Below are positions 17,937-61,464 of a stretch of 64,000 nucleotides of DNA, one piece after another. The stretch comes from Brachycybe producta (taxonomy: Eukaryota; Arthropoda; Diplopoda; Playtdesmida; Andrognathidae): contig JAUPFP010000027.1 of NCBI GenBank assembly GCA_036925085.1, positions 1,050,001 to 1,114,000 on the forward strand, given 5' to 3'. Under the pieces are notes generated by a model that was not told where the DNA came from, did no database searches, and saw nothing but the letters and a program-made list of their open reading frames with translations. Position numbers and translations under genes: made by a program. Each line of letters opens with the position of its first letter. Positions within the stretch are counted from its first letter, which is position 1.

Positions 17937-20900
17937 ATGGCAGGAGGACGAAGTAACGTCTACGAAGAACTTGACGAAGACGACGAAGGTTTTTATTACA
18001 ATATTTTGAAATATTTTATTTTATTGCTTATATTTTCTTACAGGGCACATTGTCAAAACATAACATTTCTAAGTTTTAATGTATAATTTATTATTTTTCA
18101 AGTTTAATCAACTTTTGAGAGTAAAGTGCAAGTGTTTAAGGGTGTTTTGCTATCAACTATATGGCTCATCATAACTGATATTTATCAATTGCTATAGGGT
18201 CGTGTGGGGGTCATGTGGACTATTCCACTATGAGAAGGCAATTAATTATTTTTATTTCATCCAAAATTCAGATATTGCATCACTTGTGACGTGATAACCA
18301 TTTATAGTTATTTTAATTTAAAATAATGCATGATCATAGTTGATGCAACTATTGAATATATATTTTTAGACAAGTGAGTGCAATGGCTATCCACTACTTT
18401 TGTAGAGACTACAAGGTACATTTCAGAAGTTTTCTCTTTTAATAGTTTTGAGTAGAAGCTATAAGAAGGGGCCAACAGTCTTCTTTGTTAAGGCCGGTTT
18501 CCCACTACGTGTTCACTGTACAACTATTTTCACCTTGAACGTTATGTACAAGGTTTTAACGTAAAGAAAATCCAAATTAAAAAGTACTTTTTAAATTTTG
18601 AATATGGTTTTTGTATGTTAGAACCCTTGCGCAAAGAGTTCAAGGTGAAAATTTATGACAAGTGTATACATCGTGGGAACCGGCCTTTAGCCTCTAAAGC
18701 AGAATAAATTGTCAAAAAATATATAGTGGTAGCTCAACTAATACCTATGCCAATTAAGCATTTTGTGCTATAGCTGAATGTAGCCAATAGACGGCGCCAA
18801 CTATTCACAAAGCTAATTTGTTTCTCAATTGCACCACGATTCAGTGATTAATTAAACTACCTATTATTAGAAAAGGGATTCAAGCATCTTTTTTATAATC
18901 GTAAATAGAAAGGCAAGGGACTATAAAAAAAATAAAAGAGAGCCTCGAAGAAAGTTTATTCAATTAATTGTCACTCACGACGTTTTTCCTTCCCTTTAAA
19001 ATGGAGTTGAACTACCTCTATCTTGAACCTATGATCGGACGTCACGACTACTGCACTTTCTACTGTGGCGCTATCTATTGAGTAGTAATGCAATTTAAGA
19101 AAAATAAACATGGCCGTTTCCATTTAATTAATTTATTTTGTGAAAAAATTCGAAAAATACGTATTTCATATAAAATTAACGCAGTTAAAATTGCTTTTTA
19201 GTGGGTCGTACTAAAAGGCGTGACGGGCGTGTTGGGCGTGTAGGGCGTGTAGGTTAATTTTACGTTGTTTTTGATCATTCCGGTACACCCCAAGGTAGGT
19301 AATGCTATTTCACAGTACACACACTTAGTACACATTAATTAAAGTCGTTAAATACCCGGAAAAAAAATTTTCCGCGGTTTTTAAAAATTTTTAAAAATTT
19401 TTTTAAAGGGCGTGTAGGGCGTGTTGGCTTATTTTCGCGCGTTTTTCAATAGTTAATTTTAGTTAATATTACTGTAAGGTACATACACTTAGTACACATA
19501 ACTAACAGTCATTACCTACCCGGAAAAAAATTTTCCGCGATTTATTTTTATTTTTAAATTTTTTTTTAGAGGGCGTGTAGGGCGTGTTGCCTTATTTTTC
19601 AAAATTTTCGCGCGTTTTTCGTTATTTAAATTTAAGAAATGTTACTATAAGGTACGTACACTTAGTACACGTAACTTACAGTCAGTATATAGCCGGAAAA
19701 AAATTTTCCGCGATTTTTTTTCGATTTTTAAATTTTTTTTTAGAGGGCGTGTAGGGCGTGTTGGCTTATATTTCAAAATTTTCGCGCGTTTTTCGATATT
19801 TAAAATTAGGTAATAATAGTATAAGGTACGTACACTTACTACACATAACATACATTCATTAACTACCCGGAAAAAACTTTTTCCGCGATTTTTTTTTATT
19901 TTTAAATTTTTTTTTAGAGGGCGTGTAGGGCGTGTTGCCTTATTTTTCAAAATGTTCGCGCGTTTTTCGTTATTTAAATTTAAGAAATGTTACTATAAGG
20001 TACGTACACTTAGTACACGTAACTTACAGTCATTATATAGCCGGAAAAAAATTTTCCGCGATTTTTTTTCGATTTTTAAATTTTTTTTTAGAGGGCGTGT
20101 AGGGCGTGTTGCCTTATATTTCAAAATGTTCGCGCGTTTTTCGTTATTTAAATTTAAGAAATGTTACTATAAGGTACGTACACTTACTACACATAACATA
20201 CATTCATTAACTACCCGGAAAAAACTTTTTCCGCGATTTTTTTTTATTTTTAAATTTTTTTTTAGAGGGCGTGTAGGGCGTGTTGCCTTATTTTTCAAAA
20301 TGTTCGCGCGTTTTTCGTTATTTAAATTTAAGAAATGTTACTATAAGGTACGTACACTTAGTACACGTAACTTACAGTCATTATATAGCCGGAAAAAAAT
20401 TTTCCGCGATTTTTTTTCGATTTTTAAATTTTTTTTTAGAGGGCGTGTAGGGCGTGTTGGCTTATATTTCAAAATTTTCGCGCGTTTTTCGATATTTAAA
20501 ATTAGGTAATAATAGTATAAGGTACGTACACTTACTACACATAACATACATTCATTAACTACCCGGAAAAAACTTTTTCCGCGATTTTTTTTTATTTTTA
20601 AATTTTTTTTAGAGGGCGTGTAGGGCGTGTTGCCTTATTTTTCAAAATTTTCGCGCGTTTTTTGATATTTAAAATTAGGTAATATTAGTATAAGGTACGT
20701 ACACTTACTACACATAACATACATTCATTAACTACCCGGAAAAAACTTTTTCCGCGATTTTTTTTTATTTTTAAATTTTTTTTTAGATTGCGTGTAGGGC
20801 GTGTTGCCTTATTTTTCAAAATTTTCGCGCGTTTTTCGTTATTTAAAATTAGGTAATAATAGTATAAGGTAAGTACACTTACTACACATAACATACATTC

Positions 20901-23900
20901 ATTAACTACCCGGAAAAAACTTTTTCCGCGATTTTTTTTTATTTTTAAATTTTTTTTTAGAGGGCGTGTAGGGCGTGTTGCCTTATTTTTCAAAATGTTC
21001 GCGCGTTTTTCGTTATTTAAATTTAAGAAATGTTACTATAAGGTACGTACACTTAGTACACGTAACTTACAGTCATTATATAGCCGGAAAAAAATTTTCC
21101 GCGATTTTTTTTCGATTTTTAAATTTTTTTTTAGAGGGCGTGTAGGGCGTGTTGCCTTATATTTCAAAATGTTCGCGCGTTTTTCGTTATTTAAATTTAA
21201 GAAATGTTACTATAAGGTACGTACACTTACTACACATAACATACATTCATTAACTACCCGGAAAAAACTTTTTCCGCGATTTTTTTTTATTTTTAAATTT
21301 TTTTTTAGAGGGCGTGTAGGGCGTGTTGCCTTATTTTTCAAAATGTTCGCGCGTTTTTCGTTATTTAAATTTAAGAAATGTTACTATAAGGTACGTACAC
21401 TTAGTACACGTAACTTACAGTCATTATATAGCCGGAAAAAAATTTTCCGCGATTTTTTTTCGATTTTTAAATTTTTTTTTAGAGGGCGTGTAGGGCGTGT
21501 TGGCTTATATTTCAAAATTTTCGCGCGTTTTTCGATATTTAAAATTAGGTAATAATAGTATAAGGTACGTACACTTACTACACATAACATACATTCATTA
21601 ACTACCCGGAAAAAACTTTTTCCGCGATTTTTTTTTATTTTTAAATTTTTTTTAGAGGGCGTGTAGGGCGTGTTGCCTTATTTTTCAAAATTTTCGCGCG
21701 TTTTTTGATATTTAAAATTAGGTAATATTAGTATAAGGTACGTACACTTACTACACATAACATACATTCATTAACTACCCGGAAAAAACTTTTTCCGCGA
21801 TTTTTTTTTATTTTTAAATTTTTTTTTAGAGGGCGTGTAGGGCGTGTTGGCTTATATTTCAAAATTTTCGCGCGTTTTTCGATATTTAAAATTAGGTAAT
21901 AATAGTATAAGGTACGTACACTTACTACACATAACATACATTCATTAACTACCCGGAAAAAACTTTTTCCGCGATTTTTTTTTATTTTTAAATTTTTTTT
22001 TAGAGGGCGTGTAGGGCGTGTTGCCTTATTTTTCAAAATGTTCGCGCGTTTTTCGTTATTTAAATTTAAGAAATGTTACTATAAGGTACGTACACTTACT
22101 ACACATAACATACATTCATTAACTACCCGGAAAAAACTTTTTCCGCGATTTTTTTTTATTTTTAAATTTTTTTTTAGAGGGCGTGTAGGGCGTGTTGCCT
22201 TATTTTTCAAAATTTTCGCGCGTTTTTCGTTATTTAAATTTAAGAAATGTTACTATAAGGTACGTACACTTAGTACACGTAACTTACAGTCATTATATAG
22301 CCGGAAAAAAATTTTCCGCGATTTTTTTTCGATTTTTAAATTTTTTTTTAGAGGGCGTGTAGGGCGTGTTGGCTTATATTTCAAAATTTTCGCGCGTTTT
22401 TCGATATTTAAAATTAGGTAATATTAGTATAAGGTACGTCCACTTACTACACATAACATACATTCATTAACTACCCGGAAAAAACTTTTTCCGCGATTTT
22501 TTTTTATTTTTAAATTTTTTTTAGAGGGCGTGTAGGGCGTGTTGCCTTATTTTTCAAAATTTTCGCGCGTTTTTTGATATTTAAAATTAGGTAATATTAG
22601 TATAAGGTACGTACACTTACTACACATAACATACATTCATTAACTACCCGGAAAAAACTTTTTCCGCGATTTTTTTTTATTTTTAAATTTTTTTTTAGAG
22701 GGCGTGTAGGGCGTGTTGCCTTATTTTTCAAAATTTTCGCGCGTTTTTCGTTATTTAAATTTAAGAAATGTTACTATAAGGTACGTACACTTAGTACACG
22801 TAACTTACAGTCATTATATAGCCGGAAAAAAATTTTCCGCGATTTTTTTTCGATTTTTAAATTTTTTTTTAGAGGGCGTGTTGGCTTATATTTCAAAATT
22901 TTCGCGCGTTTTTCGATATTTAAAATTAGGTAATAATAGTATAAGGTACGTACACTTACTACACATAACATACATTCATTAACTACCCGGAAAAAACTTT
23001 TTCCGCGATTTTTTTTTATTTTTAAATTTTTTTTAGAGGGCGTGTAGGGCGTGTTGCCTTATTTTTCAAAATTTTCGCGCGTTTTTTGATATTTAAAATT
23101 AGGTAATAATAGTATAAGGTACGTACACTTACTACACATAACATACATTCATTAACTACCCGGAAAAAACTTTTTCCGCGATTTTTTTTTATTTTTAAAT
23201 TTTTTTTTAGAGGGCGTGTAGGGCGTGTTGCCTTATTTTTCAAAATGTTCGCGCGTTTTTCGTTATTTAAATTTAAGAAATGTTACTATAAGGTACGTAC
23301 ACTTAGTACACGTAACTTACAGTCATTATATAGCCGGAAAAAAATTTTCCGCGATTTTTTTTCGATTTTTAAATTTTTTTTTAGAGGGCGTGTAGGGCGT
23401 GTTGGCTTATATTTCAAAATTTTCGCGCGTTTTTCGATATTTAAAATTAGGTAATAATAGTATAAGGTACGTACACTTACTACACATAACATACATTCAT
23501 TAACTACCCGGAAAAAACTTTTTCCGCGATTTTTTTTTATTTTTAAATTTTTTTTTAGAGGGCGTGTAGGGCGTGTTGCCTTATTTTTCAAAATTTTCGC
23601 GCGTTTTTCGTTATTTAAATTTAAGAAATGTTACTATAAGGTACGTACACTTAGTACACGTAACTTACAGTCATTATATAGCCGGAAAAAAATTTTCCGC
23701 GATTTTTTTTCGATTTTTAAATTTTTTTTTAGAGGGCGTGTTGGCTTATATTTCAAAATTTTCGCGCGTTTTTCGATATTTAAAATTAGGTAATAATAGT
23801 ATAAGGTACGTACACTTACTACACATAACATACATTCATTAACTACCCGGAAAAAACTTTTTCCGCGATTTTTTTTTATTTTTAAATTTTTTTTTAGAGG

Positions 23901-26900
23901 GCGTGTAGGGCGTGTTGCCTTATTTTTCAAAATTTTCGCGCGTTTTTCGTTATTTAAATTTAAGAAATGTTACTATAAGGTACGTACACTTAGTACACGT
24001 AACTTACAGTCATTATATAGCCGGAAAAAAATTTTCCGCGATTTTTTTTCGATTTTTAAATTTTTTTTTAGAGGGCGTGTAGGGCGTGTTGGCTTATATT
24101 TCAAAATTTTCGCGCGTTTTTCGATATTTAAAATTAGGTAATATTAGTATAAGGTACGTCCACTTACTACACATAACATACATTCATTAACTACCCGGAA
24201 AAAACTTTTTCCGCGATTTTTTTTTATTTTTAAATTTTTTTTAGAGGGCGTGTAGGGCGTGTTGCCTTATTTTTCAAAATTTTCGCGCGTTTTTTGATAT
24301 TTAAAATTAGGTAATATTAGTATAAGGTACGTACACTTACTACACATAACATACATTCATTAACTACCCGGAAAAAACTTTTTCCGCGATTTTTTTTTAT
24401 TTTTAAATTTTTTTTTAGAGGGCGTGTAGGGCGTGTTGCCTTATTTTTCAAAATTTTCGCGCGTTTTTCGTTATTTAAATTTAAGAAATGTTACTATAAG
24501 GTACGTACACTTAGTACACGTAACTTACAGTCATTATATAGCCGGAAAAAAATTTTCCGCGATTTTTTTTCGATTTTTAAATTTTTTTTTAGAGGGCGTG
24601 TTGGCTTATATTTCAAAATTTTCGCGCGTTTTTCGATATTTAAAATTAGGTAATAATAGTATAAGGTACGTACACTTACTACACATAACATACATTCATT
24701 AACTACCCGGAAAAAACTTTTTCCGCGATTTTTTTTTATTTTTAAATTTTTTTTAGAGGGCGTGTAGGGCGTGTTGCCTTATTTTTCAAAATTTTCGCGC
24801 GTTTTTTGATATTTAAAATTAGGTAATAATAGTATAAGGTACGTACACTTACTACACATAACATACATTCATTAACTACCCGGAAAAAACTTTTTCCGCG
24901 ATTTTTTTTTATTTTTAAATTTTTTTTTAGAGGGCGTGTAGGGCGTGTTGCCTTATTTTTCAAAATTTTCGCGCGTTTTTTGATATTTAAAATTAGGTAA
25001 TAATAGTATAAGGTACGTACACTTACTACACATAACATACATTCATTAACTACCCGGAAAAAACTTTTTCCGCGATTTTTTTTTATTTTTAAATTTTTTT
25101 TTAGAGGGCGTGTAGGGCGTGTTGCCTTATTTTTCAAAATGTTCGCGCGTTTTTCGTTATTTAAATTTAAGAAATGTTACTATAAGGTACGTACACTTAG
25201 TACACGTAACTTACAGTCATTATATAGCCGGAAAAAAATTTTCCGCGATTTTTTTTCGATTTTTAAATTTTTTTTTAGAGGGCGTGTAGGGCGTGTTGGC
25301 TTATATTTCAAAATATTCGCGCGTTTTTCGATATTTAAAATTAGGTAATAATAGTATAAGGTACGTACACTTACTACACATAACATACATTCATTAACTA
25401 CCCGGAAAAAACTTTTTCCGCGATTTTTTTTTATTTTTAAATTTTTTTTAGAGGGCGTGTAGGGCGTGTTGCCTTATTTTTCAAAATTTTCGCGCGTTTT
25501 TTGATATTTAAAATTAGGTAATATTAGTATAAGGTACGTACACTTACTACACATAACATACATTCATTAACTACCCGGAAAAAACTTTTTCCGCGATTTA
25601 TTTTTATTTTTAAATTTTTTTTTAGAGGGCGTGTAGGGCGTGTTGCCTTATTTTTCAAAATGTTCGCGCGTTTTTCGTTATTTAAATTTAAGAAATGTTA
25701 CTATAAGGTACGTACACTTAGTACACGTAACTTACAGTCATTATATAGCCGGAAAAAAATTTTCCGCGATTTTTTTTCGATTTTTAAATTTTTTTTTAGA
25801 GGGCGTGTAGGGCGTGTTGGCTTATATTTCAAAATTTTCGCGCGTTTTTCGATATTTAAAATTAGGTAATAATAGTATAAGGTACGTACACTTACTACAC
25901 ATAACATACATTCATTAACTACCCGGAAAAAACTTTTTCCGCGATTTTTTTTTATTTTTAAATTTTTTTTTAGAGGGCGTGTAGGGCGTGTTGCCTTATT
26001 TTTCAAAATGTTCGCGCGTTTTTCGTTATTTAAATTTAAGAAATGTTACTATAAGGTACGTACACTTACTACACATAACATACATTCATTAACTACCCGG
26101 AAAAAACTTTTTCCGCGATTTTTTTTTATTTTTAAATTTTTTTTTAGAGGGCGTGTAGGGCGTGTTGCCTTATTTTTCAAAATTTTCGCGCGTTTTTCGT
26201 TATTTAAATTTAAGAAATGTTACTATAAGGTACGTACACTTAGTACACGTAACTTACAGTCATTATATAGCCGGAAAAAAATTTTCCGCGATTTTTTTTC
26301 GATTTTTAAATTTTTTTTTAGAGGGCGTGTAGGGCGTGTTGGCTTATATTTCAAAATTTTCGCGCGTTTTTCGATATTTAAAATTAGGTAATATTAGTAT
26401 AAGGTACGTCCACTTACTACACATAACATACATTCATTAACTACCCGGAAAAAACTTTTTCCGCGATTTTTTTTTATTTTTAAATTTTTTTTAGAGGGCG
26501 TGTAGGGCGTGTTGCCTTATTTTTCAAAATTTTCGCGCGTTTTTTGATATTTAAAATTAGGTAATATTAGTATAAGGTACGTACACTTACTACACATAAC
26601 ATACATTCATTAACTACCCGGAAAAAACTTTTTCCGCGATTTTTTTTTATTTTTAAATTTTTTTTTAGAGGGCGTGTAGGGCGTGTTGCCTTATTTTTCA
26701 AAATTTTCGCGCGTTTTTCGTTATTTAAATTTAAGAAATGTTACTATAAGGTACGTACACTTAGTACACGTAACTTACAGTCATTATATAGCCGGAAAAA
26801 AATTTTCCGCGATTTTTTTTCGATTTTTAAATTTTTTTTTAGAGGGCGTGTTGGCTTATATTTCAAAATTTTCGCGCGTTTTTCGATATTTAAAATTAGG

Positions 26901-29900
26901 TAATAATAGTATAAGGTACGTACACTTACTACACATAACATACATTCATTAACTACCCGGAAAAAACTTTTTCCGCGATTTTTTTTTATTTTTAAATTTT
27001 TTTTAGAGGGCGTGTAGGGCGTGTTGCCTTATTTTTCAAAATTTTCGCGCGTTTTTTGATATTTAAAATTAGGTAATATTAGTATAAGGTACGTACACTT
27101 ACTACACATAACATACATTCATTAACTACCCGGAAAAAACTTTTTCCGCGATTTTTTTTTATTTTTAAATTTTTTTTTAGAGGGCGTGTAGGGCGTGTTG
27201 CCTTATTTTTCAAAATGTTCACGCGTTTTTCGTTATTTAAATTTAAGAAATGTTACTATAAGGTACGTACACTTACTACACATAACATACATTCATTAAC
27301 TACCCGGAAAAAACTTTTTCCGCGATTTTTTTTTATTTTTAAATTTTAAATTAAAAAAGTGTATTACAGTATTTCAATTAAATTTTCATGCATTTTTTCT
27401 CGTGTAATTTTTTTGCAATTGTTTTAATTTCAATAAAAATCGGATAAAAGTATTTTAATAAACTTTATGGTGTGTTTTGTAAACTCTTCTAAGTTACATT
27501 TAAAGTCGCGGAATTTGTTTTCAAGAATTGAACTTAAAAAGTGCAACATTCTTTTCTACAAGGTGTGCAGTAAAGGTAAGATTTTAAATTTTATTAAATA
27601 TTTTCTTAATTCTTTATTTTGGTGAACATATTGCTAAGTATTATTCTTTCAATTCTACATATACAGTCATTGATAATGTTCTTATAAATTTCATTTTTAT
27701 TAATTAAAATATCCAAGCATTGTTTTTCTCATGAGTATCTCTTTGTTTGGGTTTAATTAACATTTAACCACTAAGCTCTGCCACCACGTCAAGGTGTATA
27801 CTCATTGGCAGAGTTTTCTTGTTTAGGGAACAAGAAACCCTCTATCACTCGAGATGTAAATGATAGAGGAAAAGAAATCCCATTCATTATTTAAAGACAT
27901 TTTCACAACAACTTAGCACATCTTACAACGTGGCCTTATGCACTTTTTCACTGCTACATTTCTGGAAATATGAAAGTATTTATTATATATTTTTAATATT
28001 TAATTGCACTGCTATGCTGTTGTAAACCGAAAATTACAAACCTTAAGTATGGAATGCAATCATTGACATTATGTCCTTGACAGTGGCACAATGTGCAACA
28101 ACACTGCAGTGACAATGACTGTGCTTCTGCTGTTTGTGGTCCAATGTTAGGAAGACAACCGGGGAACTGTTGCCTAAGGACACGCCGAATTGTTGAACAG
28201 AAGGCTGTTACACCCGAGAGAAATGATAAGTGTAGCTTATCTTTGCAAAGCAAGTGTTCTTTGCCATGGCCAGCTTTTAACCTAAAAGCAATCTAATAAT
28301 ACCCAATTTAGAACTAAGAAAAGTAATTTAATGTGTTGAACATACTTCATAATTAAGAATTGAATAAATTCCTTTTTGGTGTTTTTTTAAGCCTCTGTTA
28401 ATTATGATTCCTTTCTTGTTAAGTTTCTCGTTGTCGTTTCTTGGAAGGATGGTTCCAATAAATACATAATTAACATATTTCTTAACAGTTTGTGCTAAGG
28501 TGATAAGTTCACCAAGCACATGCTTGGCAGGCCTCGTAAGATTATTGGTTCCTACCTGAAATAATTAAGTATGCAGTTTTTTAATTTAGTTTATATGACA
28601 TACACTAGATACTCAGTAATGTGTGCCTCTGAATACAACTAATTAATCTAAAATTTTACTTACATGTATCACAATGAAATCTAAAGAATCCAGTTTAAGG
28701 TTCTCGCTTGTCAATACATGCGCGATGTCTTCAATCTTGGCTCCAGGCATACAAAAGGTGCACAACGAAAGGTTAGCATTGTAACCCAGAATGCGATGCT
28801 GTGTAGCATAGCGTACAATGGAATCCCCAATAATCAGCCCCTTTACTGTTGTCATCTACAATATATTGTGAAGAAACTCTACATTACAGTATCTTACAGT
28901 ACAATGAATATGCATTTGTATTTATCCCAGGCATGAAAAAAAATATTGGACTGTCTTCTGTTTGAATTAGAATACATCAGACTATTTACTTAGCCCACAC
29001 AGGGGCCAAAAGCCATGGCCATTATTAGGCAATTTAAGAGTTTGGGACATGCAGTGTCACAGACCTCAGCAAAAGGTGGCCATAAAAAATGTAGCATATG
29101 CCACATCATGTCAGCTCAGAGTGATGTTTTTTGCCTCCCTTCAGAATGGAAAAATTAATACAATAGTATGCAATATTTCTTAGTGTGGCCATTTCGTGAA
29201 ACAAACATCAAGCCCAAAATGAGAAGTGGAAGTGGCAAAAAAGTGGATTGTGTGCAAAATTGCTTTTCTGAATTTTGTGCTCTCTCCAAATTCCTACTGT
29301 AATCATTTCCAGTAAGTTTTTAGTCAGTCCTTAATATCATCATAAAACTTTAGAATCATATCCCATCTTCTAATTTCAGAGTGTCCAAAAGGCTTAAATA
29401 GAATGCTCCTGACTAAGAAGGACTTTTGTGCCCACCATCATTTCTGCTTTATTTGCCCTTCTCAAATGTAGCATGCAGGTCAAAACAAATTACCATTGGA
29501 GGGTGTGGCTAAAATGAATCAGTACTTTTTTATTCATTTGTCAAAAATGATGTGTATGTACATGTACACACTTGTGTGCATGCGCATGCATGTGTACACA
29601 CTTGTGCGCATGTGTGTGCATGCGTACACACTTGTGCACATGTGTGTGCACGCGTACACACTTGTGCGCATGTGTGTGCACGCGTACACACTTGTGTGCA
29701 TGTGTGTGCACGCATACACACTTGTTCGCATTTGTATGCACGCGTACACACTTGTGCACATGTGTATGCACGCGTACACACTTGTGCACATGTGTATGCA
29801 CGCGTACACACTTGTGCGTATGCATACGCACATGTACACACTTGTGCACATGTGTATGCACATATACACACGTGAGAATTAATCACTTACATGTACAGTG

Positions 29901-32900
29901 TATTTTGATATACAAAAATAATAACATAACATAGAAAGGAACACCCCTCCTAAATAATAGGAATAGTATCCCTTTCAAATGCTACAACTGGAAAAAGGAA
30001 GAATATCGATTTTTTTTAAAAAAATTATGATTTTGAAAAATCGAAATTTTATGTATCAGATTACTCTAAAATTTCAATTTCATGGTCATCGTTAGAATGT
30101 GTACATCATTTTAGTCTGATGACATTTTGTTGTAGGTGGCCCCGTTTTTCGAGTTGTTGGACCCACGAAAAATTATGACCAAAAACTCAAAATTTGTTTC
30201 TAAAACATTTATAAAAAATAACCAAAGGGTAAAATTTTCTGATTGTTTGTCAGGAGCATCATATTGACCCACTGAATCAAATAAAAAAAGACTCCATGTC
30301 TATCTCATTAAGTTCTTGAGTTGTGTGACCCACAAACTCGGGAGTCCAGACATACATTCTTTTTTGCCTCTTTTCTTGCATGATCCTATATACCCCTCCA
30401 TTGCTATAAAAAGCAATAGATGTCAAAAACGTTTATTTTTAAAATACACAATCACGGCAATATGTTTATTTTTCATAATTAGGGCCAACTGTTTTATGAA
30501 AATGCATATTCTTTTTGTTGCTTTATATTTCATGCTGTGTCAGATTTAAGCACGATTCATGTGATATGAAGGTGAATAACACTAGTTTTATTTTGCATAT
30601 AATTGCATATTTAAGGGTATTTGTATTTTGCATGCATATTTTGGGAAGTTTACATGTTAAGGGCATATTTGAAACTTTTTTCTAGTAAAATTATGATTTT
30701 TCTATTTTAGTTCAAGAAACTGAACATATTTTCAGTCATTCAAGAACTGCAAGAGAATTTAAAATGTGCTACTGGGAATACTTCCAAAAAAGCAACAAAG
30801 AAATTGTCAACTGTATTACAAAAATAAAGGCTATAAAGAGCTCCAGAAGATTTGTGCCGTTTTGAATGGTGAAAATCTTAATGAAGATATCAGTTTGTCT
30901 ATTTCTGATATTGCTCGTTTTAAGCGGTACCAGTAACATCTTGTGATGTAGAACGTACTTTCTCGAAGTATAAAGCACAGGCATTTAGAAATCGGGATGA
31001 AGACAAGTTTGCTCCGCCCTTTTTATGATGAACGCAACTTCTAATTGGTTGTTATGTAGTCTGACGTCTGATGTCTCCGCCCATTTCAACATTGAACCAC
31101 ACAACAAACCAATTAGAAGTTCTGGTCGTCATAAAAAGGGCGGAGCCAACTTGTGTTCGTCCGATTTCTAAATGCCTGTGTATAAAGCTCTACTAAATAA
31201 CAATCTGCATAATTTTAAATCTGAAAAATTGAGAATGTTTTTTGTTGTGTATTTCAATCCCAAAAAAAAAATTATTGTGCAAATGATATCCAAAAGTGCA
31301 TATTTTGTCGGCATATTTTAGGATTTATGACAGCATGCATATTTCTTTTATTTTTATGGCATGAAACCGTTGGCCCTATTCATTATTAAAGTTGTCCAAT
31401 ATTAAGTTTTCAAAGTGCAATGTGCACCTTAACTATATGCTGATCTGGTGATAGAATGACAAAAAATTAAGCGCGGTTCTATTTTTAAAAAGTATTTCAA
31501 AATCGCGAATTTCTAAATCTTCTGTTAAACTCCATTGATTATATGCCCAAATAAAAAAAATATCCATTAAAATGTTGGTAAACATAATTTTAAAAAACAA
31601 CAAGTAAACCACAGTGAAACCAACAGATTTGTGCATGTGATGATTTTTTTCTGGGATTTAAAATTATTTTTAGGTATTCTTATGAGCATCCTAATGGATG
31701 TTTTTTTGCTTAAGAACACGTACTCAATGGAGTTTAACATAAGAGTTAAAAATTCGCGATTTTGAAATACTTTTTAAAAATAGAACCGCGCTTACCAATT
31801 TTGTGTCATTCTATCGCTAGATCAGCATATATTTAAGGTGCACATTGCACTTTGAACCATCAAAATTGGACAACTTTAAATATGTAAAAAGTTATATAAT
31901 AAATGATATGTAAAATATTTAAAAGTGAACGTTCTTTTAAACATTGGGTATATGTGGAGATTTTCCGAAGTAATTTTGCGATGTAGCCTTTCAAGAGTGC
32001 TGAATAGCGAATTTTAAATATATCCGTGGGCCATATCATATGATGTTTATTGTAACGAATATAATTTTTTAAAGTTCCCTTTACAAACAAAATTAAGTTA
32101 AGCTTAAGGCAGATCAGATAAAAGATTAATAAAAACAGCAGTCATTTTCAGCTGAGGGTGATTGGTTTATTTTATCTATACCCAGTGGCATAGCTCGGCT
32201 TGGTTGTGCCCCCCCCCGCCGCTTATATCTTTGCGCCCCTCCCCCCCTGGCCGCTTAAAACTTTTCACTCCTTTTACATCTCCCTCCACTTAGCCCTTAT
32301 ACTGGGGGATGCTATTTTGATGAACGGTGGAACAGTAGGAACAGTCCAAAAGTTTTATTAAAATAAAGCTTCTTGCAGGGGGCCTGGGGGCCACATGGCC
32401 CCTGGCTGTGATAGTGAATGGGCGGGGCCACGTGTCTTCCATTTTTCACCAGTTGATTCCACTGAGATAAACATTTGAACTTTTTTAAATTTCAACTGGT
32501 GAAAAATAGAACGCACGTGGCTCCTGCCGATTCGCTATCATAGGCAGGGACCACGTTTCTTCTATTTTCAAAAGAAGTTTTTCACCCCAGTGGAAACAAG
32601 GCATAAGAGAAAAACGTTCTCCCCCTCGTTCAATTCTTTCAAAGGCGTGTGTGTTTACCCGCCACTATTTAAAAATAAAAAACCTGAGAGCACGATGCTT
32701 TTAAAAAAAAATGTGAAATGGAAAAACCGACTTGTAATAAAAAGTTTATTTTAAAAGAAATTAAAATGCTTATTACTATGTAATTCATTTGCTATTCCAG
32801 TGTCAATTTCTTTTCAAAGATGTAGATGAAACACAGAATGATTTAAAAAAAATCAATTTTTTTTATTTAAATCAAGAAATAATTGTTTTAGGACCCCCAC

Positions 32901-44900: not shown

Positions 44901-47900
44901 CAATGTAGAGATAAGTATAAATGAAAAATTAAATATAAATGCATTCAATGTACTGTTTTCCTCAAATGCTCATCTATATTGCTAACTATCTGAAGTTTTG
45001 GTATTCCATAACATCAGGAAAGCCCTTTTCCTGATGTTACAGAATACGAAAACTTCAGATAAATAGCACATTCCCTCTCCTAACAGCATTTTTTCAGTTT
45101 TTCAGGTTCCAGCACAGGATTAGCTCATCTAAATTAGTGACAGGGCTTTTCTGATGTTATGGAAAACCATAATTTCAGATGAATGGCAGATTCCCTTTCC
45201 CAGTAGCACTTTTTTCAGTTTTCAGGTTGCTGCGCACAATTAGCTCATCTAAATTAGTGACAGGGCTTTTCTGTTGTTATGGAATACCAAAACTTCAGAT
45301 ACATCTAACTAGCACATTCACTTCATGCCAAATCGTATGCTGACGACTCTGTGCCATAATTGCAGGCTAATGAAGTGAATGTGTCTAGTAGTGTAATTTT
45401 TATAGTTATCGCAATAAATAGCTAGGTTCCTTTTGCAACAGTGCTTCCTGTTTCAGTTATCTGGTTGTTTCACATTATTAGCTCATCTAAATTAGTGACA
45501 GGGCTTTTCTGTTGTTATGGAATACCAAAACTTCAGATACATCTAACTAGCACATTCACTTCATGCCAAATCGTATGCTGACGGCTCTGTGCCATAATTG
45601 CAGGCTAATGAAGTGAATGTGTCTAGTAGTGTAATTTTTATAGTTATCGCAATAAATAGCTGGGTTCCTTTTGCAACAGTGCTTTCTGTTTCAGTTTTCT
45701 GGTTGCTTCACATTATTAGCTCATCTAAATTAGTGACAGGGCTTTTCTGTTGTTATGGAATACCAAAACTTCAGATACATCTAACTAGCACATTCACTTC
45801 ATGCCAAATCGTATGCTGACGGCTCTGTGCCATAATTGCAGGCTAATGAAGTGAATGTGTCTAGTAGTGTAATTTTTATAGTTATCGCAATAAATAGCTG
45901 GGCTCCTTTTGCAATAGTGCTTTCTGTTTCAGTTTTCTGGTTGCTTCACATTATTAGCTCATCTAAATTAGTGACAGGGCTTTTCTGTTGTTATGGAATA
46001 CCAAAACTTCAGATACATCTAACTAGCACATTCACTTCATGCCAAATCGTATGCTGACGGCTCTGTGCCATAATTGCAGGCTAATGAAGTGAATGTGTCT
46101 AGTAGTGTAATTTTTATAGTTATCGCAATAAATAGCTGGGTTCCTTTTGCAATAGTGCTTTCTGTTTCAGTTTTCTGGTTGCTTCACATTATTAGCTCAT
46201 ATAAATTAGTGACAGGGCTTTTCTGTTGTTATGGAATACCAAAACTTAAGATACATCTAACTAGCACATTCACTTCATGCCAAATCGTATGCTGACGGCT
46301 CTGTGCCATAATTGCAGGCTAATGAAGTGAATGTGTCTAGTAGTGTAATTTTTATAGTTATTGTAATAAATAGCTGGGTTCCTTTTGCAACAGTCCTTTC
46401 TGTTTCAGTTTTCTGGTTGCTTCACATTATTAGCTCATCTAAATTAGTGACAGGGCTTTTCTGTTGTTATGGAATACCAAAACTTCAGATACATCTAACT
46501 AGCACATTCACTTCATGCCAAATCGTATGCTGACGGCTCTGTGCCATAATTGCAGGCTAATGAAGTGAATGTGTCTAGTAGTGTAATTTTTATAGTTATC
46601 GCAATAAATAGCTGGGTTCCTTTTGCAACAGTGCTTTCTGTTTCAGTTTTCTGGTTGCTTCACATTATTAGCTCATCTAAATTAGTGACAGGGCTTTTCT
46701 GTTGTTATGGAATACCAAAACTTCAGATACATCTAACTAGCACATTCACTTCATGCCAAATCGTATGCTGACGGCTCTGTGCCATAATTGCAGGCTAATG
46801 AAGTGAATGTGTCTAGTAGTGTAATTTTTATAGTTATCGCAATAAATAGCTGGGCTCCTTTTGCAATAGTGCTTTCTGTTTCAGTTTTCTGGTTGCTTCA
46901 CATTATTAGCTCATCTAAATTAGTGACAGGGCTTTTCTGTTGTTATGGAATACCAAAACTTCAGATACATCTAACTAGCACATTCACTTCATGCCAAATC
47001 GTATGCTGACGGCTCTGTGCCATAATTGCAGGCTAATGAAGTGAATGTGTCTAGTAGTGTAATTTTTATAGTTATCGCAATAAATAGCTGGGTTCCTTTT
47101 GCAATAGTGCTTTCTGTTTCAGTTTTCTGGTTGCTTCACATTATTAGCTCATATAAATTAGTGACAGGGCTTTTCTGTTGTTATGGAATACCAAAACTTA
47201 AGATACATCTAACTAGCACATTCACTTCATGCCAAATCGTATGCTGACGGCTCTGTGCCATAATTGCAGGCTAATGAAGTGAATGTGTCTAGTAGTGTAA
47301 TTTTTATAGTTATTGTAATAAATAGCTGGGTTCCTTTTGCAACAGTCCTTTCTGTTTCAGTTTTCTGGTTGCTTCACATTATTAGCTCATCTAAATTAGT
47401 GACAGGGCTTTTCTGTTGTTATGGAATACCAAAACTTCAGATACATCTAACTAGCACATTCACTTCATGCCAAATCGTATGCTGACGGCTCTGTGCCATA
47501 ATTGCAGGCTAATGAAGTGAATGTGTCTAGTAGTGTAATTTTTATAGTTATCACAATAAATAGCTGGGTTCCTTTTGCAACAGTGCTTCCTGTTTCAGTT
47601 TTCTGGTTGTTTCACATTATTAGCTCATCTAAATTAGTGACAGGGCTTTTCTGTTGTTATGGAATACCAAAACTTCAGATACATCTAACTAGCACATTCA
47701 CTTTTTGCCAAATCGTATGCTGACGGCTCAGTGCCATAATTGCAGGCTAATTAAGTGAAAGTGTCTAGTAGTGTAGTTTTTATAGTTATTGCAATAAATA
47801 GCTGGGTTCCTTTTGCAAAAGTGCATAAGGCCACTTAAGTTGTACTAAGATGTGAAAATGTCTTTAATAATGAATGGGATTTCTTTTCCTCTATCATTTA

Positions 47901-50900
47901 CATCTCGAGTGATAGAGGGTTTCTTGTTCCCTAAACAAGAAAACTCTGCCAATGAGTATACACCTTGACGTGGTGGCAGAGCTTAGTGGTTAAATGTTAA
48001 TTAAACCCAAACAAAGAGATACTCATGAGAAAAACAATGCTTGGATATTTTAATTAATAAAAATGAAATTTATAAGAACATTATCAATGACTGTATATGT
48101 AGAATTGAAAGAATAATACTTAGCAATATGTTCACCAAAATAAAGAATTAAGAAAATATTTAATAAAATTTAAAATCTTACCTTTACTGCACACCTTGTA
48201 GAAAAGAATGTTGCACTTTTTAAGTTCAATTCTTGAAAACAAATTCCGCGACTTTAAATGTAACTTAGAAGAGTTTACAAAACACACCATAAAGTTTATT
48301 AAAATACTTTTATCCGATTTTTATTGAAATTAAAACAATTGCAAAAAAATTACACGAGAAAAAATGCATGAAAATTTAATTGAAATACTGTAATACACTT
48401 TTTTAATTTAAAATTTAAAAATAAAAAAAAATCGCGGAAAAAGTTTTTTCCGGGTAGTTAATGAATGTATGTTATGTGTAGTAAGTGTACTTACCTTATA
48501 CTATTATTACCTAATTTTAAATAACGAAAAACGCGCGAAAATTTTGAAAAATAAGGCAACACGCCCTACACGCAATCTAAAAAAAAATTTAAAAATAAAA
48601 AAAAATCGCGGAAAAAGTTTTTTCCGGGTAGTTAATGAATGTATGTTATGTGTAGTAAGTGTACGTACCTTATACTAATATTACCTAATTTTAAATATCA
48701 AAAAACGCGCGAAAATTTTGAAAAATAAGGCAACACGCCCTACACGCCCTCTAAAAAAAATTTAAAAATAAAAAAAAATCGCGGAAAAAGTTTTTTCCGG
48801 GTAGTTAATGAATGTATGTTATGTGTAGTAAGTGTACGTACCTTATACTATTATTACCTAATTTTAAATATCGAAAAACGCGCGAAAATTTTGAAATATA
48901 AGCCAACACGCCCTACACGCCCTCTAAAAAAAAATTTAAAAATCGAAAAAAAATCGCGGAAAATTTTTTTCCGGCTATATAATGACTGTAAGTTACGTGT
49001 ACTAAGTGTACGTACCTTATAGTAACATTTCTTAAATTTAAATAACGAAAAACGCGCGAACATTTTGAAAAATAAGGCAACACGCCCTACAAGCCCTCTA
49101 AAAAAAATTTAAAAATAAAAAAAAATCGCGGAAAAAGTTTTTTCCGGGTAGTTAATGAATGTATGTTATGTGTAGTAAGTGTACGTACCTTATACTATTA
49201 TTACCTAATTTTAAATATCGAAAAACGCGCGAAAATTTTGAAATATAAGCCAACACGCCCTACACGCCCTCTAAAAAAAAATTTAAAAATCGAAAAAAAA
49301 TCGCGGAAAATTTTTTTCCGGCTATATAATGACTGTAAGTTACGTGTACTAAGTGTACGTACCTTATAGTAACATTTCTTAAATTTAAATAACGAAAAAC
49401 GCGCGAACATTTTGAAAAATAAGGCAACACGCCCTACACGCCCTCTAAAAAAAAATTTAAAAATAAAAAAAAATCGCGGAAAAAGTTTTTTCCGGGTAGT
49501 TAATGAATGTATGTTATGTGTAGTAAGTGTACGTACCTTATACTATTATTACCTAATTTTAAATATCGAAAAACGCGCGAAAATTTTGAAATATAAGCCA
49601 ACACGCCCTACACGCCCTCTAAAAAAAAATTTAAAAATCGAAAAAAAATCGCGGAAAATTTTTTTCCGGCTATATAATGACTGTAAGTTACGTGTACTAA
49701 GTGTACGTACCTTATAGTAACATTTCTTAAATTTAAATAACGAAAAACGCGCGAAAATTTTGAAAAATAAGGCAACACGCCCTACACGCCCTCTAAAAAA
49801 AAATTTAAAAATAAAAAAAAATCGCGGAAAAAGTTTTTTCCGGGTAGTTAATGAATGTATGTTATGTGTAGTAAGTGTACGTACCTTATACTAATATTAC
49901 CTAATTTTAAATATCAAAAAACGCGCGAAAATTTTGAAAAATAAGGCAACACGCCCTACACGCCCTCTAAAAAAAATTTAAAAATAAAAAAAAATCGCGG
50001 AAAAAGTTTTTTCCGGGTAGTTAATGAATGTATGTTATGTGTAGTAAGTGGACGTACCTTATACTAATATTACCTAATTTTAAATATCGAAAAACGCGCG
50101 AAAATTTTGAAATATAAGCCAACACGCCCTACACGCCCTCTAAAAAAAAATTTAAAAATCGAAAAAAAATCGCGGAAAATTTTTTTCCGGCTATATAATG
50201 ACTGTAAGTTACGTGTACTAAGTGTACGTACCTTATAGTAACATTTCTTAAATTTAAATAACGAAAAACGCGCGAAAATTTTGAAAAATAAGGCAACACG
50301 CCCTACACGCCCTCTAAAAAAAAATTTAAAAATAAAAAAAAATCGCGGAAAAAGTTTTTTCCGGGTAGTTAATGAATGTATGTTATGTGTAGTAAGTGTA
50401 CGTACCTTATACTATTATTACCTAATTTTAAATATCGAAAAACGCGCGAAAATTTTGAAATATAAGCCAACACGCCCTCTAAAAAAAAATTTAAAAATCG
50501 AAAAAAAATCGCGGAAAATTTTTTTCCGGCTATATAATGACTGTAAGTTACGTGTACTAAGTGTACGTACCTTATAGTAACATTTCTTAAATTTAAATAA
50601 CGAAAAACGCGCGAAAATTTTGAAAAATAAGGCAACACGCCCTACACGCCCTCTAAAAAAAAATTTAAAAATAAAAAAAAATCGCGGAAAAAGTTTTTTC
50701 CGGGTAGTTAATGAATGTATGTTATGTGTAGTAAGTGTACGTACCTTATACTATTATTACCTAATTTTAAATATCGAAAAACGCGCGAAAATTTTGAAAT
50801 ATAAGCCAACACGCCCTACACGCCCTCTAAAAAAAAATTTAAAAATCGAAAAAAAATCGCGGAAAATTTTTTTCCGGCTATATAATGACTGTAAGTTACG

Positions 50901-53900
50901 TGTACTAAGTGTACGTACCTTATAGTAACATTTCTTAAATTTAAATAACGAAAAACGCGCGAACATTTTGAAAAATAAGGCAACACGCCCTACACGCCCT
51001 CTAAAAAAAAATTTAAAAATAAAAAAAAATCGCGGAAAAAGTTTTTTCCGGGTAGTTAATGAATGTATGTTATGTGTAGTAAGTGTACGTACCTTATAGT
51101 AACATTTCTTAAATTTAAATAACGAAAAACGCGCGAACATTTTGAAATATAAGGCAACACGCCCTACACGCCCTCTAAAAAAAAATTTAAAAATCGAAAA
51201 AAAATCGCGGAAAATTTTTTTCCGGCTATATAATGACTGTAAGTTACGTGTACTAAGTGTACGTACCTTATAGTAACATTTCTTAAATTTAAATAACGAA
51301 AAACGCGCGAACATTTTGAAAAATAAGGCAACACGCCCTACACGCCCTCTAAAAAAAAATTTAAAAATAAAAAAAAATCGCGGAAAAAGTTTTTTCCGGG
51401 TAGTTAATGAATGTATGTTATGTGTAGTAAGTGTACGTACCTTATACTATTATTACCTAATTTTAAATATCGAAAAACGCGCGAAAATTTTGAAATATAA
51501 GCCAACACGCCCTACACGCCCTCTAAAAAAAAATTTAAAAATCGAAAAAAAATCGCGGAAAATTTTTTTCCGGCTATATAATGACTGTAAGTTACGTGTA
51601 CTAAGTGTACGTACCTTATAGTAACATTTCTTAAATTTAAATAACGAAAAACGCGCGAACATTTTGAAAAATAAGGCAACACGCCCTACACGCCCTCTAA
51701 AAAAAAATTTAAAAATAAAAAAAAATCGCGGAAAAAGTTTTTTCCGGGTAGTTAATGAATGTATGTTATGTGTAGTAAGTGTACGTACCTTATAGTAACA
51801 TTTCTTAAATTTAAATAACGAAAAACGCGCGAACATTTTGAAATATAAGGCAACACGCCCTACACGCCCTCTAAAAAAAAATTTAAAAATCGAAAAAAAA
51901 TCGCGGAAAATTTTTTTCCGGCTATATAATGACTGTAAGTTACGTGTACTAAGTGTACGTACCTTATAGTAACATTTCTTAAATTTAAATAACGAAAAAC
52001 GCGCGAACATTTTGAAAAATAAGGCAACACGCCCTACACGCCCTCTAAAAAAAAATTTAAAAATAAAAAAAAATCGCGGAAAAAGTTTTTTCCGGGTAGT
52101 TAATGAATGTATGTTATGTGTAGTAAGTGTACGTACCTTATACTATTATTACCTAATTTTAAATATCGAAAAACGCGCGAAAATTTTGAAATATAAGCCA
52201 ACACGCCCTACACGCCCTCTAAAAAAAAATTTAAAAATCGAAAAAAAATCGCGGAAAATTTTTTTCCGGCTATATAATGACTGTAAGTTACGTGTACTAA
52301 GTGTACGTACCTTATAGTAACATTTCTTAAATTTAAATAACGAAAAACGCGCGAACATTTTGAAAAATAAGGCAACACGCCCTACAAGCCCTCTAAAAAA
52401 AATTTAAAAATAAAAAAAAATCGCGGAAAAAGTTTTTTCCGGGTAGTTAATGAATGTATGTTATGTGTAGTAAGTGTACGTACCTTATACTATTATTACC
52501 TAATTTTAAATATCGAAAAACGCGCGAAAATTTTGAAATATAAGCCAACACGCCCTACACGCCCTCTAAAAAAAAATTTAAAAATCGAAAAAAAATCGCG
52601 GAAAATTTTTTTCCGGCTATATAATGACTGTAAGTTACGTGTACTAAGTGTACGTACCTTATAGTAACATTTCTTAAATTTAAATAACGAAAAACGCGCG
52701 AACATTTTGAAAAATAAGGCAACACGCCCTACACGCCCTCTAAAAAAAAATTTAAAAATAAAAAAAAATCGCGGAAAAAGTTTTTTCCGGGTAGTTAATG
52801 AATGTATGTTATGTGTAGTAAGTGTACGTACCTTATACTATTATTACCTAATTTTAAATATCGAAAAACGCGCGAAAATTTTGAAATATAAGCCAACACG
52901 CCCTACACGCCCTCTAAAAAAAAATTTAAAAATCGAAAAAAAATCGCGGAAAATTTTTTTCCGGCTATATAATGACTGTAAGTTACGTGTACTAAGTGTA
53001 CGTACCTTATAGTAACATTTCTTAAATTTAAATAACGAAAAACGCGCGAAAATTTTGAAAAATAAGGCAACACGCCCTACACGCCCTCTAAAAAAAAATT
53101 TAAAAATAAAAAAAAATCGCGGAAAAAGTTTTTTCCGGGTAGTTAATGAATGTATGTTATGTGTAGTAAGTGTACGTACCTTATACTAATATTACCTAAT
53201 TTTAAATATCAAAAAACGCGCGAAAATTTTGAAAAATAAGGCAACACGCCCTACACGCCCTCTAAAAAAAATTTAAAAATAAAAAAAAATCGCGGAAAAA
53301 GTTTTTTCCGGGTAGTTAATGAATGTATGTTATGTGTAGTAAGTGGACGTACCTTATACTAATATTACCTAATTTTAAATATCGAAAAACGCGCGAAAAT
53401 TTTGAAATATAAGCCAACACGCCCTACACGCCCTCTAAAAAAAAATTTAAAAATCGAAAAAAAATCGCGGAAAATTTTTTTCCGGCTATATAATGACTGT
53501 AAGTTACGTGTACTAAGTGTACGTACCTTATAGTAACATTTCTTAAATTTAAATAACGAAAAACGCGCGAAAATTTTGAAAAATAAGGCAACACGCCCTA
53601 CACGCCCTCTAAAAAAAAATTTAAAAATAAAAAAAAATCGCGGAAAAAGTTTTTTCCGGGTAGTTAATGAATGTATGTTATGTGTAGTAAGTGTACGTAC
53701 CTTATACTATTATTACCTAATTTTAAATATCGAAAAACGCGCGAAAATTTTGAAATATAAGCCAACACGCCCTCTAAAAAAAAATTTAAAAATCGAAAAA
53801 AAATCGCGGAAAATTTTTTTCCGGCTATATAATGACTGTAAGTTACGTGTACTAAGTGTACGTACCTTATAGTAACATTTCTTAAATTTAAATAACGAAA

Positions 53901-56900
53901 AACGCGCGAAAATTTTGAAAAATAAGGCAACACGCCCTACACGCCCTCTAAAAAAAAATTTAAAAATAAAAAAAAATCGCGGAAAAAGTTTTTTCCGGGT
54001 AGTTAATGAATGTATGTTATGTGTAGTAAGTGTACGTACCTTATACTATTATTACCTAATTTTAAATATCGAAAAACGCGCGAAAATTTTGAAATATAAG
54101 CCAACACGCCCTACACGCCCTCTAAAAAAAAATTTAAAAATCGAAAAAAAATCGCGGAAAATTTTTTTCCGGCTATATAATGACTGTAAGTTACGTGTAC
54201 TAAGTGTACGTACCTTATAGTAACATTTCTTAAATTTAAATAACGAAAAACGCGCGAACATTTTGAAAAATAAGGCAACACGCCCTACACGCCCTCTAAA
54301 AAAAAATTTAAAAATAAAAAAAAATCGCGGAAAAAGTTTTTTCCGGGTAGTTAATGAATGTATGTTATGTGTAGTAAGTGTACGTACCTTATACTATTAT
54401 TACCTAATTTTAAATATCGAAAAACGCGCGAAAATTTTGAAATATAAGCCAACACGCCCTCTAAAAAAAAATTTAAAAATCGAAAAAAAATCGCGGAAAA
54501 TTTTTTTCCGGCTATATAATGACTGTAAGTTACGTGTACTAAGTGTACGTACCTTATAGTAACATTTCTTAAATTTAAATAACGAAAAACGCGCGAAAAT
54601 TTTGAAAAATAAGGCAACACGCCCTACACGCCCTCTAAAAAAAAATTTAAAAATAAAAAAAAATCGCGGAAAAAGTTTTTTCCGGGTAGTTAATGAATGT
54701 ATGTTATGTGTAGTAAGTGTACGTACCTTATACTATTATTACCTAATTTTAAATATCGAAAAACGCGCGAAAATTTTGAAATATAAGCCAACACGCCCTA
54801 CACGCCCTCTAAAAAAAAATTTAAAAATCGAAAAAAAATCGCGGAAAATTTTTTTCCGGCTATATAATGACTGTAAGTTACGTGTACTAAGTGTACGTAC
54901 CTTATAGTAACATTTCTTAAATTTAAATAACGAAAAACGCGCGAACATTTTGAAAAATAAGGCAACACGCCCTACACGCCCTCTAAAAAAAAATTTAAAA
55001 ATAAAAAAAAATCGCGGAAAAAGTTTTTTCCGGGTAGTTAATGAATGTATGTTATGTGTAGTAAGTGTACGTACCTTATAGTAACATTTCTTAAATTTAA
55101 ATAACGAAAAACGCGCGAACATTTTGAAATATAAGGCAACACGCCCTACACGCCCTCTAAAAAAAAATTTAAAAATCGAAAAAAAATCGCGGAAAATTTT
55201 TTTCCGGCTATATAATGACTGTAAGTTACGTGTACTAAGTGTACGTACCTTATAGTAACATTTCTTAAATTTAAATAACGAAAAACGCGCGAACATTTTG
55301 AAAAATAAGGCAACACGCCCTACACGCCCTCTAAAAAAAAATTTAAAAATAAAAAAAAATCGCGGAAAAAGTTTTTTCCGGGTAGTTAATGAATGTATGT
55401 TATGTGTAGTAAGTGTACGTACCTTATACTATTATTACCTAATTTTAAATATCGAAAAACGCGCGAAAATTTTGAAATATAAGCCAACACGCCCTACACG
55501 CCCTCTAAAAAAAAATTTAAAAATCGAAAAAAAATCGCGGAAAATTTTTTTCCGGCTATATACTGACTGTAAGTTACGTGTACTAAGTGTACGTACCTTA
55601 TAGTAACATTTCTTAAATTTAAATAACGAAAAACGCGCGAAAATTTTGAAAAATAAGGCAACACGCCCTACACGCCCTCTAAAAAAAAATTTAAAAATAA
55701 AAATAAATCGCGGAAAATTTTTTTCCGGGTAGGTAATGACTGTTAGTTATGTGTACTAAGTGTATGTACCTTACAGTAATATTAACTAAAATTAACTATT
55801 GAAAAACGCGCGAAAATAAGCCAACACGCCCTACACGCCCTTTAAAAAAATTTTTAAAAATTTTTAAAAACCGCGGAAAATTTTTTTTCCGGGTATTTAA
55901 CGACTTTAATTAATGTGTACTAAGTGTGTGTACTGTGAAATAGCATTACCTACCTTGGGGTGTACCGGAATGATCAAAAACAACGTAAAATTAACCTACA
56001 CGCCCTACACGCCCAACACGCCCGTCACGCCTTTTAGTACGACCCCTTTTTAGTATTTTTTTTTCGGATGGAATACAAGTTTAATTTGTGTTGAAAAAAT
56101 GAATGACTATGACGTTGATGACATAGCATTCTTAACTGGTTTGATTTTTTTCTCCCGTCTCTCAGAATCATTTCTGCCAATGTTTTCGTTTAGAATTTCG
56201 TGTGATTTTGTGGTCTTATTTGACATTTTTCAGGTGATAGTCGTTTTGGTGTGAATAAGAGGGCCCTTTATGAACCTTCTGGAATGGTGGACAGAGTTCG
56301 TCGTGTGATTGTTAGTCCGAAGAGAGCTTGTTGTATCGCCATCGTTGTCTTCCTTTGCATTCTGAGTATCGCTCTCATCGCAGCTTTTTCACGTCCTTTC
56401 GTCTGTTGCACGTGCAAGTCGAGCGTTGATCAGGAACAGGAAGGAGGACACTTGGGCCTGACGTCCTCAGGTGGAGGAGGAGGAGGCAGCGGCGGTGACG
56501 GTGGCGGTGATGGCACGAACGGTAGTCAGTCTATTTCATCGTCTTACATCTCATCGTCTTCGAATTCTTCTTCATCTTCTTCAGCGTTGACGCCACCTAC
56601 AGCGACAAACGGTGAAGTGTTTCCATGGGGAAACATCCGTTTGCCCGAATTCATTGTGCCTCTATCGTATTCGATCGCTCTTCATCCAAATCTAACCACT
56701 TTTGTTAATCAGGGAACCGTGAACGTCACTTTTAAATTAACCGCACCTCAGAAGTTTATCGTTCTTCATGTAAAAGATTTAGAATTAACTAATTTTGTTT
56801 TGGATGCGAAAGATGGAAAGACTATCGGTGTTCGTAAAACTCTACGCTATCTGAAATACGAACAGTTGTACGTCGAATTTGACGAGTTGCTTCTTAAAGA

Positions 56901-61383: not shown

Positions 61384-61464
61384 GCTAAAAAAAAATTATC
61401 AACTGTAATGTTGGTAACGAGCTTTCTGTGAATCCTCTTCCCCAGATTTTTTCATTGTCTTTAA

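Follow-up and report, generated by a model that had tools for sequence, protein, structure and literature searches.

A giant, recently mobile transposon of probable Rehavkus kind in the millipede Brachycybe producta

The stretch analysed here, 64,000 nucleotides of contig JAUPFP010000027.1 of the millipede Brachycybe producta (hereafter the window), raises the question of whether a segment of almost 37 kb bounded by inverted ends is one cut-and-paste transposon and, if so, of which kind and how recently it moved. With a probability of about 0.8, it is read here as a Rehavkus-type DNA transposon of giant size that moves by cut and paste, has been mobile recently and is related to the Mutator-like elements (MULEs). 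A sequence-only reading had placed a Mutator-like transposon at 19194-56054; its ends and its perfect 9-bp target duplication were both borne out, but that span includes the target duplications, and the element proper runs from 19203 to 56045 (36,843 bp, with exact inverted ends). The duplicated CTTTTTAGT occurs in the window at 19194 and 56046 only, and the terminal sequence GGGTCGTAC at 19203 only, with its reverse complement at 56037 only. The interior between the arms measures 19.97 kb.

19194-19202, no strand: left 9-bp target site duplication, CTTTTTAGT (exact sequence match)
19203-27894, + strand: left inverted arm, about 8.7 kb (8.69), made of a terminal segment, an array of ~174-bp tandem units and an inner base
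19203-20610, + strand: outer 1,408 bp, 100% identical to 54638-56045 on the opposite strand (arm comparison)
47863-56045, - strand: right inverted arm, about 8.2 kb (8.18), made of an inner base, a tandem array and a terminal segment
56046-56054, no strand: right 9-bp target site duplication, CTTTTTAGT (exact sequence match)

A second giant copy and its smaller relatives

Searches were carried out against the genome from which the window comes (G000; 295.3 Mb in 442 contigs, numbered here with the prefix C). The 18-bp tip of the element has 35 exact matches in it; at 3 mismatches a reversed control pattern is almost equally common, so that only near-exact matches are meaningful. A second giant copy of 38,358 bp was found at C12:3703726-3742083, with the same ends and a perfect 9-bp duplication of its own, GTAAAAGTC, and it is thus a further copy with a different duplication, of the kind that the sequence-only reading had proposed to look for. 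Its transposase frame is intact, with a product of 1039 amino acids that is 100% identical to that of the window copy, and among the 44 of 177 candidates that were scored these two alone carry an intact, near-identical frame of that length. In an interior comparison that excludes 837 bases at the left edge of an insert nested in the C12 copy, the two giants differ at 7 of 12,521 compared bases (5 of 10,220, 2 of 1,607 and 0 of 694), or about 0.06%. At ~3e-9 mutations per site per generation, such a divergence would take on the order of 100,000 generations to build up. The earlier suggestion of a recent, possibly self-mobilised insertion gains support from the duplication, the identical intact transposase and the low divergence of the C12 copy; the element is giant and recent, and it was probably self-mobilised.

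Inverted arms as repetitive as these, with 1,408 bp of complete identity, might have been suspected to be a product of misassembly, or else a palindrome of the host whose flanks match by chance. The C12 copy, however, has the same structure in different flanks and with another 9-bp duplication, which demonstrates transposition and makes an artefact very unlikely; in addition, the order of units differs between arms and between copies, which is not expected of a copied or collapsed assembly. This explanation is held to be extremely improbable.

Decayed or shortened relatives were found at C5:2170990-2188595, C5:197632-212199, C10:5794016-5806882, C51:157002-164221 and C18:4233568-4239400. Short pairs were scored where both tips are exact, pairs with mismatched tips being left out; there are 10 of them, 77-572 bp long, of which 2 (on C19 and C23) lie within duplicated DNA. 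Two have a perfect 9-bp duplication, 1 an exact 8-bp duplication, 2 a match at 8 of 9 positions and 1 at 7 of 9. The nine copies shorter than 200 bp (77-167 bp) match the tip of the giant, as judged by eye, over its outer ~20-30 bp only. On this evidence little beyond the tip seems to be required in cis, and the arrays are probably dispensable there in short copies. What looked like an inversion on C19 proved to be a 93% inverted duplication; it holds two ends of the window's family, C19:3499962 and C19:3575548, in DNA of 93% identity ~75 kb apart.

A sister family was recognised by its end sequence, GGGTCATACTAAAAGGCA, which has 81 exact matches in the genome compared with 0 for the reversed control pattern. 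Scored from ends and flanks, this family gave 16 convergent neighbour pairs less than 30 kb apart, 14 of which measure 12.4-27.3 kb. Perfect 9-bp duplications flank 11 of the 16 pairs, including 10 of the 14 large ones, and one more pair matches at 8 of 9 positions, albeit in a run of A. A third end type, at C5:1349767-1366228 (16.5 kb), also has a duplication at 8 of 9, a level reached by 0 of 272 mismatched pairings of the 17 flank sets. Remnants of the transposase, with 36-97% identity piecewise, are spread over the genome, and one set lies inside the sister-family pair C12:3765382-3788952. Because the sister family has copies of 12-27 kb, giant size here belongs to the lineage and not to a single insertion. 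This bears on the alternative of a composite, in which the DNA was carried along by a smaller foldback element on either side and the giant is a one-off macrotransposition, as could be imagined from the unrelated repeats nested in the interior and from arms that make up nearly half of the element. Against it, interior parts lie beside the same arm bases in both giants and in the decayed relatives on C5, C10 and C51, the transposase gene is itself interior, and the sister family is giant too; a composite origin is therefore judged very improbable.

Transposase and kinship

41805-44924, + strand: transposase gene, one open frame of 1039 amino acids (open reading frame (ORF), Pfam and alignment)
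45025-47824, + strand: minisatellite directly 3' of the transposase gene, a 238-bp unit repeated 11 times at 45213-47824 and a 120-bp unit at 45025-45301 (tandem-repeat finding)

The transposase has a DDE core of D273, D340 and E457, with 66 and 116 residues between them, and a CxxH motif at C363 and H366. A Ulp1 domain (Peptidase_C48, Pfam E 1e-12) occupies residues 801-899, and the C terminus holds a PHD-like Cys/His cluster. A protein search, made among the 7997 candidates with the most words in common, returned two relatives, of which P0001 from the mite Leptotrombidium has 28% identity and a C48 domain, and P0002 has 26% identity, a weak SWIM match (E 0.014) and no C48 match. All five residues of the core and the CxxH motif are invariant across the three proteins, as are H819, Q884 and C890, which we take to be the catalytic residues of the Ulp1 protease part. 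The PHD-like cluster is partly kept in P0002, whereas P0001 ends before it, and the three proteins retain parts of a SWIM-like Cys/His stretch. Compared with the decayed relatives, the ratio of nonsynonymous to synonymous substitution rates (dN/dS) was below 1 (0.14-0.72) at the 7 loci, out of 12, for which it was obtained, with reverse-strand loci skipped, 2 of the 7 overlapping one C18 locus and overlapping segments possibly counted twice. A more distant transposase relative (30-32% identity, open frames of up to 1088 amino acids) occurs as head-to-head pairs at C2:4231585-4238643, C38:894527-900832 and C5:5401129-5407878, with 0.75-0.87 kb between the matches; these are possibly another intact family, with the transposase gene within inverted arms.

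Published systems are compared here, and below, as they are described in the accessible portions of the cited papers. Rehavkus is known from arthropods and annelids, with a 9-bp duplication, terminal inverted repeats (TIRs) of 26-400 bp, one ORF and a PHD finger (PMC6446971); it has a minisatellite before the 3' TIR, is described in Repbase only and has been used as an outgroup of the MULEs (PMC6446971). Rehavkus-1_TC, 9.5 kb long, carries a 164-bp satellite unit in its inverted ends, mostly as five and eight monomers (PMC10218199). The present element has TIRs, a 9-bp duplication within the 8-11 bp of the Mutator superfamily and a DDE domain, and the earlier label "Mutator-like" is correct at that level. 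It is too coarse, however, as Rehavkus is the best fit for a protein that combines DDE, Ulp1 and a PHD-like end, for a gene followed by a minisatellite and for ends containing ~174-bp tandem units. With Rehavkus as represented in Repbase and by Rehavkus-1_TC and Rehavkus-1_HR, the element shares the 9-bp duplication, a MULE-related transposase with a CxxH motif, a minisatellite before the 3' TIR and an arthropod host, and with Rehavkus-1_TC it shares tandem units in the inverted termini (~164 bp there, 174 bp here). Its PHD-like Cys/His cluster is a candidate counterpart of the Rehavkus PHD finger.

Several results weigh against this reading. The Pfam matches to MULE (E 0.0039) and PHD (E 0.064) are both below the curated cut-offs, and an AlphaFold2 model built from the 3-sequence alignment was unusable (mean pLDDT, a per-residue confidence score, of 34.5). 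Kinship with Rehavkus was judged from published feature descriptions rather than from a DDE tree, and arms of 8.2-8.7 kb with a predicted second gene stand against the published TIRs of 26-400 bp and single ORF, values that come from very few elements and were taken as descriptive, not defining. Perfect 9-bp duplications flank only 2 of the 10 short copies, and no duplication is seen at 4 of these copies or at 4 of the 16 sister-family pairs, including C12:3765382-3788952. The sequence-only reading had also looked to an empty site carrying a single CTTTTTAGT, but a search of the assembly with the joined flanks gave no empty allele and matched just the two halves at the window locus. Lastly, a minisatellite also follows the ORF in Phantom of aphids, where duplications measure 8-10 bp and a SWIM finger is sometimes present (PMC6446971), and the SWIM-like stretch in the three proteins and the weak match in P0002 would agree with an ordinary MULE clade, for instance Phantom, having a giant member in which arrays and minisatellite arose independently. 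As tandem units within inverted ends, and the PHD finger that the C-terminal cluster resembles, have been reported for Rehavkus, this origin is regarded as unlikely, though less so than an artefact or a composite, and a Rehavkus-like element is preferred.

Within that kinship the element is unusual. The two giants measure 36.8 and 38.4 kb compared with 9.5 kb for Rehavkus-1_TC, with ~43-46 units per arm in arms of 8.2-8.7 kb instead of mostly five and eight monomers, and a second gene is predicted for the element against the single ORF of Rehavkus; a Ulp1 domain is unmentioned for Rehavkus in the portions consulted. Arthropod MULEs, in a survey of 4268 genomes that also treats Rehavkus as an outgroup, are 1.4-10.0 kb long with TIRs of 13-1193 bp (PMC13359780); members such as Phantom, Ghost and Spectre share a similar spacing of acidic residues, TIRs and, where listed, duplications of 8-9 or 8-10 bp, but the present element is far longer and its arms exceed those TIRs. 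The Tetris foldback elements of Drosophila virilis resemble it in TIRs of tandem ~220-bp units, 8-10 bp duplications and a small relative, DAIBAM, that shares their tips; no transposase-bearing copy was found for Tetris (PMC4079207), whereas here an intact gene lies between the arms, supplying a transposase-bearing form of the foldback architecture. Galileo, of the P superfamily, likewise has TIRs lengthened by tandem repeats and by nested elements, to 4.2-4.7 kb in its longest copy of 9.0 kb, but its transposase belongs to another superfamily, that copy is without one, and the arms here are nearly twice as long (PMC4168063). Large size is shared with Teratorn (41-182 kb; PMC6431247), Polinton/Maverick and large Helitrons; unlike in these, size here comes from arrays and accreted interior DNA. 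Of the 3 window ORFs of at least 200 amino acids the transposase is the sole one inside the element, and neither a viral gene set nor a DNA polymerase stood out among the listed window ORFs, spliced genes not having been searched for systematically.

The accessible portions of the open-licence literature searched describe no animal Rehavkus or MULE as large as this, and those of PMC8277862 contain nothing on size. The earlier view of an undescribed system does not hold for the basic kind, which is in print as Rehavkus; size, arm architecture and second gene appear new within that literature, and further novelties are arms reshuffled block by block and a sister family whose copies measure 12-27 kb. 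Larger size is said to make cut-and-paste transposition less efficient (PMC6431247), and a recently moved Rehavkus-like element of 37-38 kb with such a sister family makes the size limit testable.

Arrays in the arms and a proposed mechanism

19431-27347, + strand: left-arm array of ~174-bp tandem units, 45.8 copies by TRF (Tandem Repeats Finder)
27348-27894, + strand: left-arm inner base
48410-55927, - strand: right-arm array of ~174-bp tandem units, 43.5 copies by TRF

The arms contain 173 copies of the 8-bp motif GGGCGTGT, 90 in the left arm (all forward) and 83 in the right (all reverse), with none in the element interior or the rest of the window. When the four arms of the two giants were cut at a common motif by a script, which left some C12 units as double-length pieces, 167 units were obtained with just 27 distinct sequences in differing orders, and it follows that block order changes faster than unit sequence. 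The first 336 bp agree in all four arms and 984 bp agree in three of the four. The two arms of the window copy have 30% of their 4-unit words in common, compared with a maximum of 9% in 500 shuffles. The remaining five pairs of arms have 0-13% in common, the 13% not being above its own shuffles, and the C12 copy's own arms have none, which argues against the sharing seen in the window as a general rule. Conversion between the arms of one copy, as the identical outer arms had suggested, was dropped because of the 984 bp that agree across copies, and the claim is limited to block reshuffling, for which slippage and template switching in repair after excision are inferred.

A mechanism can be proposed on this basis. 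Transposase made from the interior gene would bind near the GGGTCGTAC tips, and perhaps also at the GGGCGTGT motifs of the arms, pair the two ends, cut at GGG/CCC and insert with a 9-bp stagger. The donor gap would be repaired from a sister or homologous copy, giving a gain in copies, and slippage on the template during this repair could both reshuffle the arms block by block and create the deletion inside the C12 copy. That the arrays bridge the 37-kb element is a guess. As possible transposase-site arrays, they can be added or removed to probe the size limit, and they show how satellite-like arrays may grow inside transposon ends.

A second predicted gene, the interior and the flanks

28664-28855, - strand: predicted exon 1 of an SGNH/GDSL-like gene, holding GDSI
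28346-28555, - strand: predicted exon 2, starting with GTNN after the splice
27996-28292, - strand: predicted exon 3, holding KDKLHLS, with a 53-bp intron and predicted splice before it

Three predicted exons on the - strand (28855-27996) would encode 233 amino acids with GDSI, GTNN and KDKLHL, in what we take to be the order of the SGNH hydrolase blocks, and would be transcribed divergently from the transposase gene. The Pfam GDSL match is weak and below cut-off (E 0.11 for the window protein, 0.036 for a C5 relative), and none of 195 database candidates was a relative at E <= 0.01. The three-exon reading is also open in the C5 relative, with 14 amino-acid differences and a dN/dS of 0.43 that rests on few changes (9 synonymous, 14 not). 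Matches to the gene were listed at 19 genomic loci, exclusive of a weaker one at C2:272325 and of matches of 33-38% identity, and both of the first two exons were matched at 16 of these. An outward-facing element end, from 17 ends picked by hand for this comparison, lies within 17 kb of 10 of the 19 loci, and a transposase match lies within 40 kb of 10 of them, divergently in 9. Without the two intact giants, the latter count is 8 of 17, compared with ~0.1 expected (26 loci, 295 Mb). In the C12 copy the third exon is interrupted by the nested insert. The predicted gene accompanies the element family, and as a possible second gene it is the most novel part of the finding. If it is a real partner, it would be a second gene in a group with one ORF reported; alternatively, the ancestral element may have carried it as a passenger. 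More tentatively still, and with somewhat better odds against it than for it, a long-lived lineage of giant two-gene transposons may be envisaged, in which a PHD/DDE/Ulp1 transposase and a divergent SGNH-hydrolase-like protein travel together and the arms turn over by block exchange faster than by mutation, letting cut-and-paste transposition exceed its usual size limit.

29732-38124, no strand: segment missing from the C12 copy (alignment to C12 copy)
30475-31390, no strand: 0.9-kb dispersed repeat nested in the interior (at least 34 further long matches)
32453-35115, no strand: 2.66-kb near-palindrome nested in the interior, arms 89% identical
39709-40308, no strand: 0.6-kb dispersed repeat nested in the interior, with a weakly helix-turn-helix-like ORF (at least 36 further long matches), also in the C12 copy

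The segment 29732-38124 was most likely lost from the C12 copy. Window positions 34901-38516 are matched at 92% by the decayed relative at C10:5794016-5797671, so its right part (34901-38124) is old, and the C5 relative matches parts of its left end. In that relative, window positions 29728-30481 and 31379-31900 lie side by side, 30481 being joined to 31379, and the 0.9-kb repeat between them is therefore a later nested insertion. A 30-bp minisatellite of alternating purines and pyrimidines (GTGTGC/CACACG type) at 29550-29861 contains the start of this 8.4-kb deletion, and AT-rich arrays with a unit like AATTCGTAATTACAA lie at 36280-36448 and 37906-38503, the deletion ending in the second. The C12 copy has in turn ~10.3 kb of additional DNA with long terminal repeat retrotransposon gag and protease-like domains; at C12:3711001-3721000 it includes a 793-amino-acid ORF with Retrotrans_gag, CCHC and aspartyl protease domains, adjoined by a 728-amino-acid ORF without Pfam match.

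To the right of the element, an open frame with a Peptidase_M1_N domain starts at 56224, the insertion lying ~170-230 bp upstream of this reading frame. The joined exon pieces of the gene have a top match of 55% and one of 54% in the millipede Chamberlinius hualienensis, and other arthropods make up most of the 120 matches listed. ORFs at 13299-13571 (-), 39066-39446 (-) and 61389-61724 (+) share a peptide like VFQxxHYxK...VLETRIV and represent a dispersed repeat, so far uncharacterised, that occurs both inside the element and near it.

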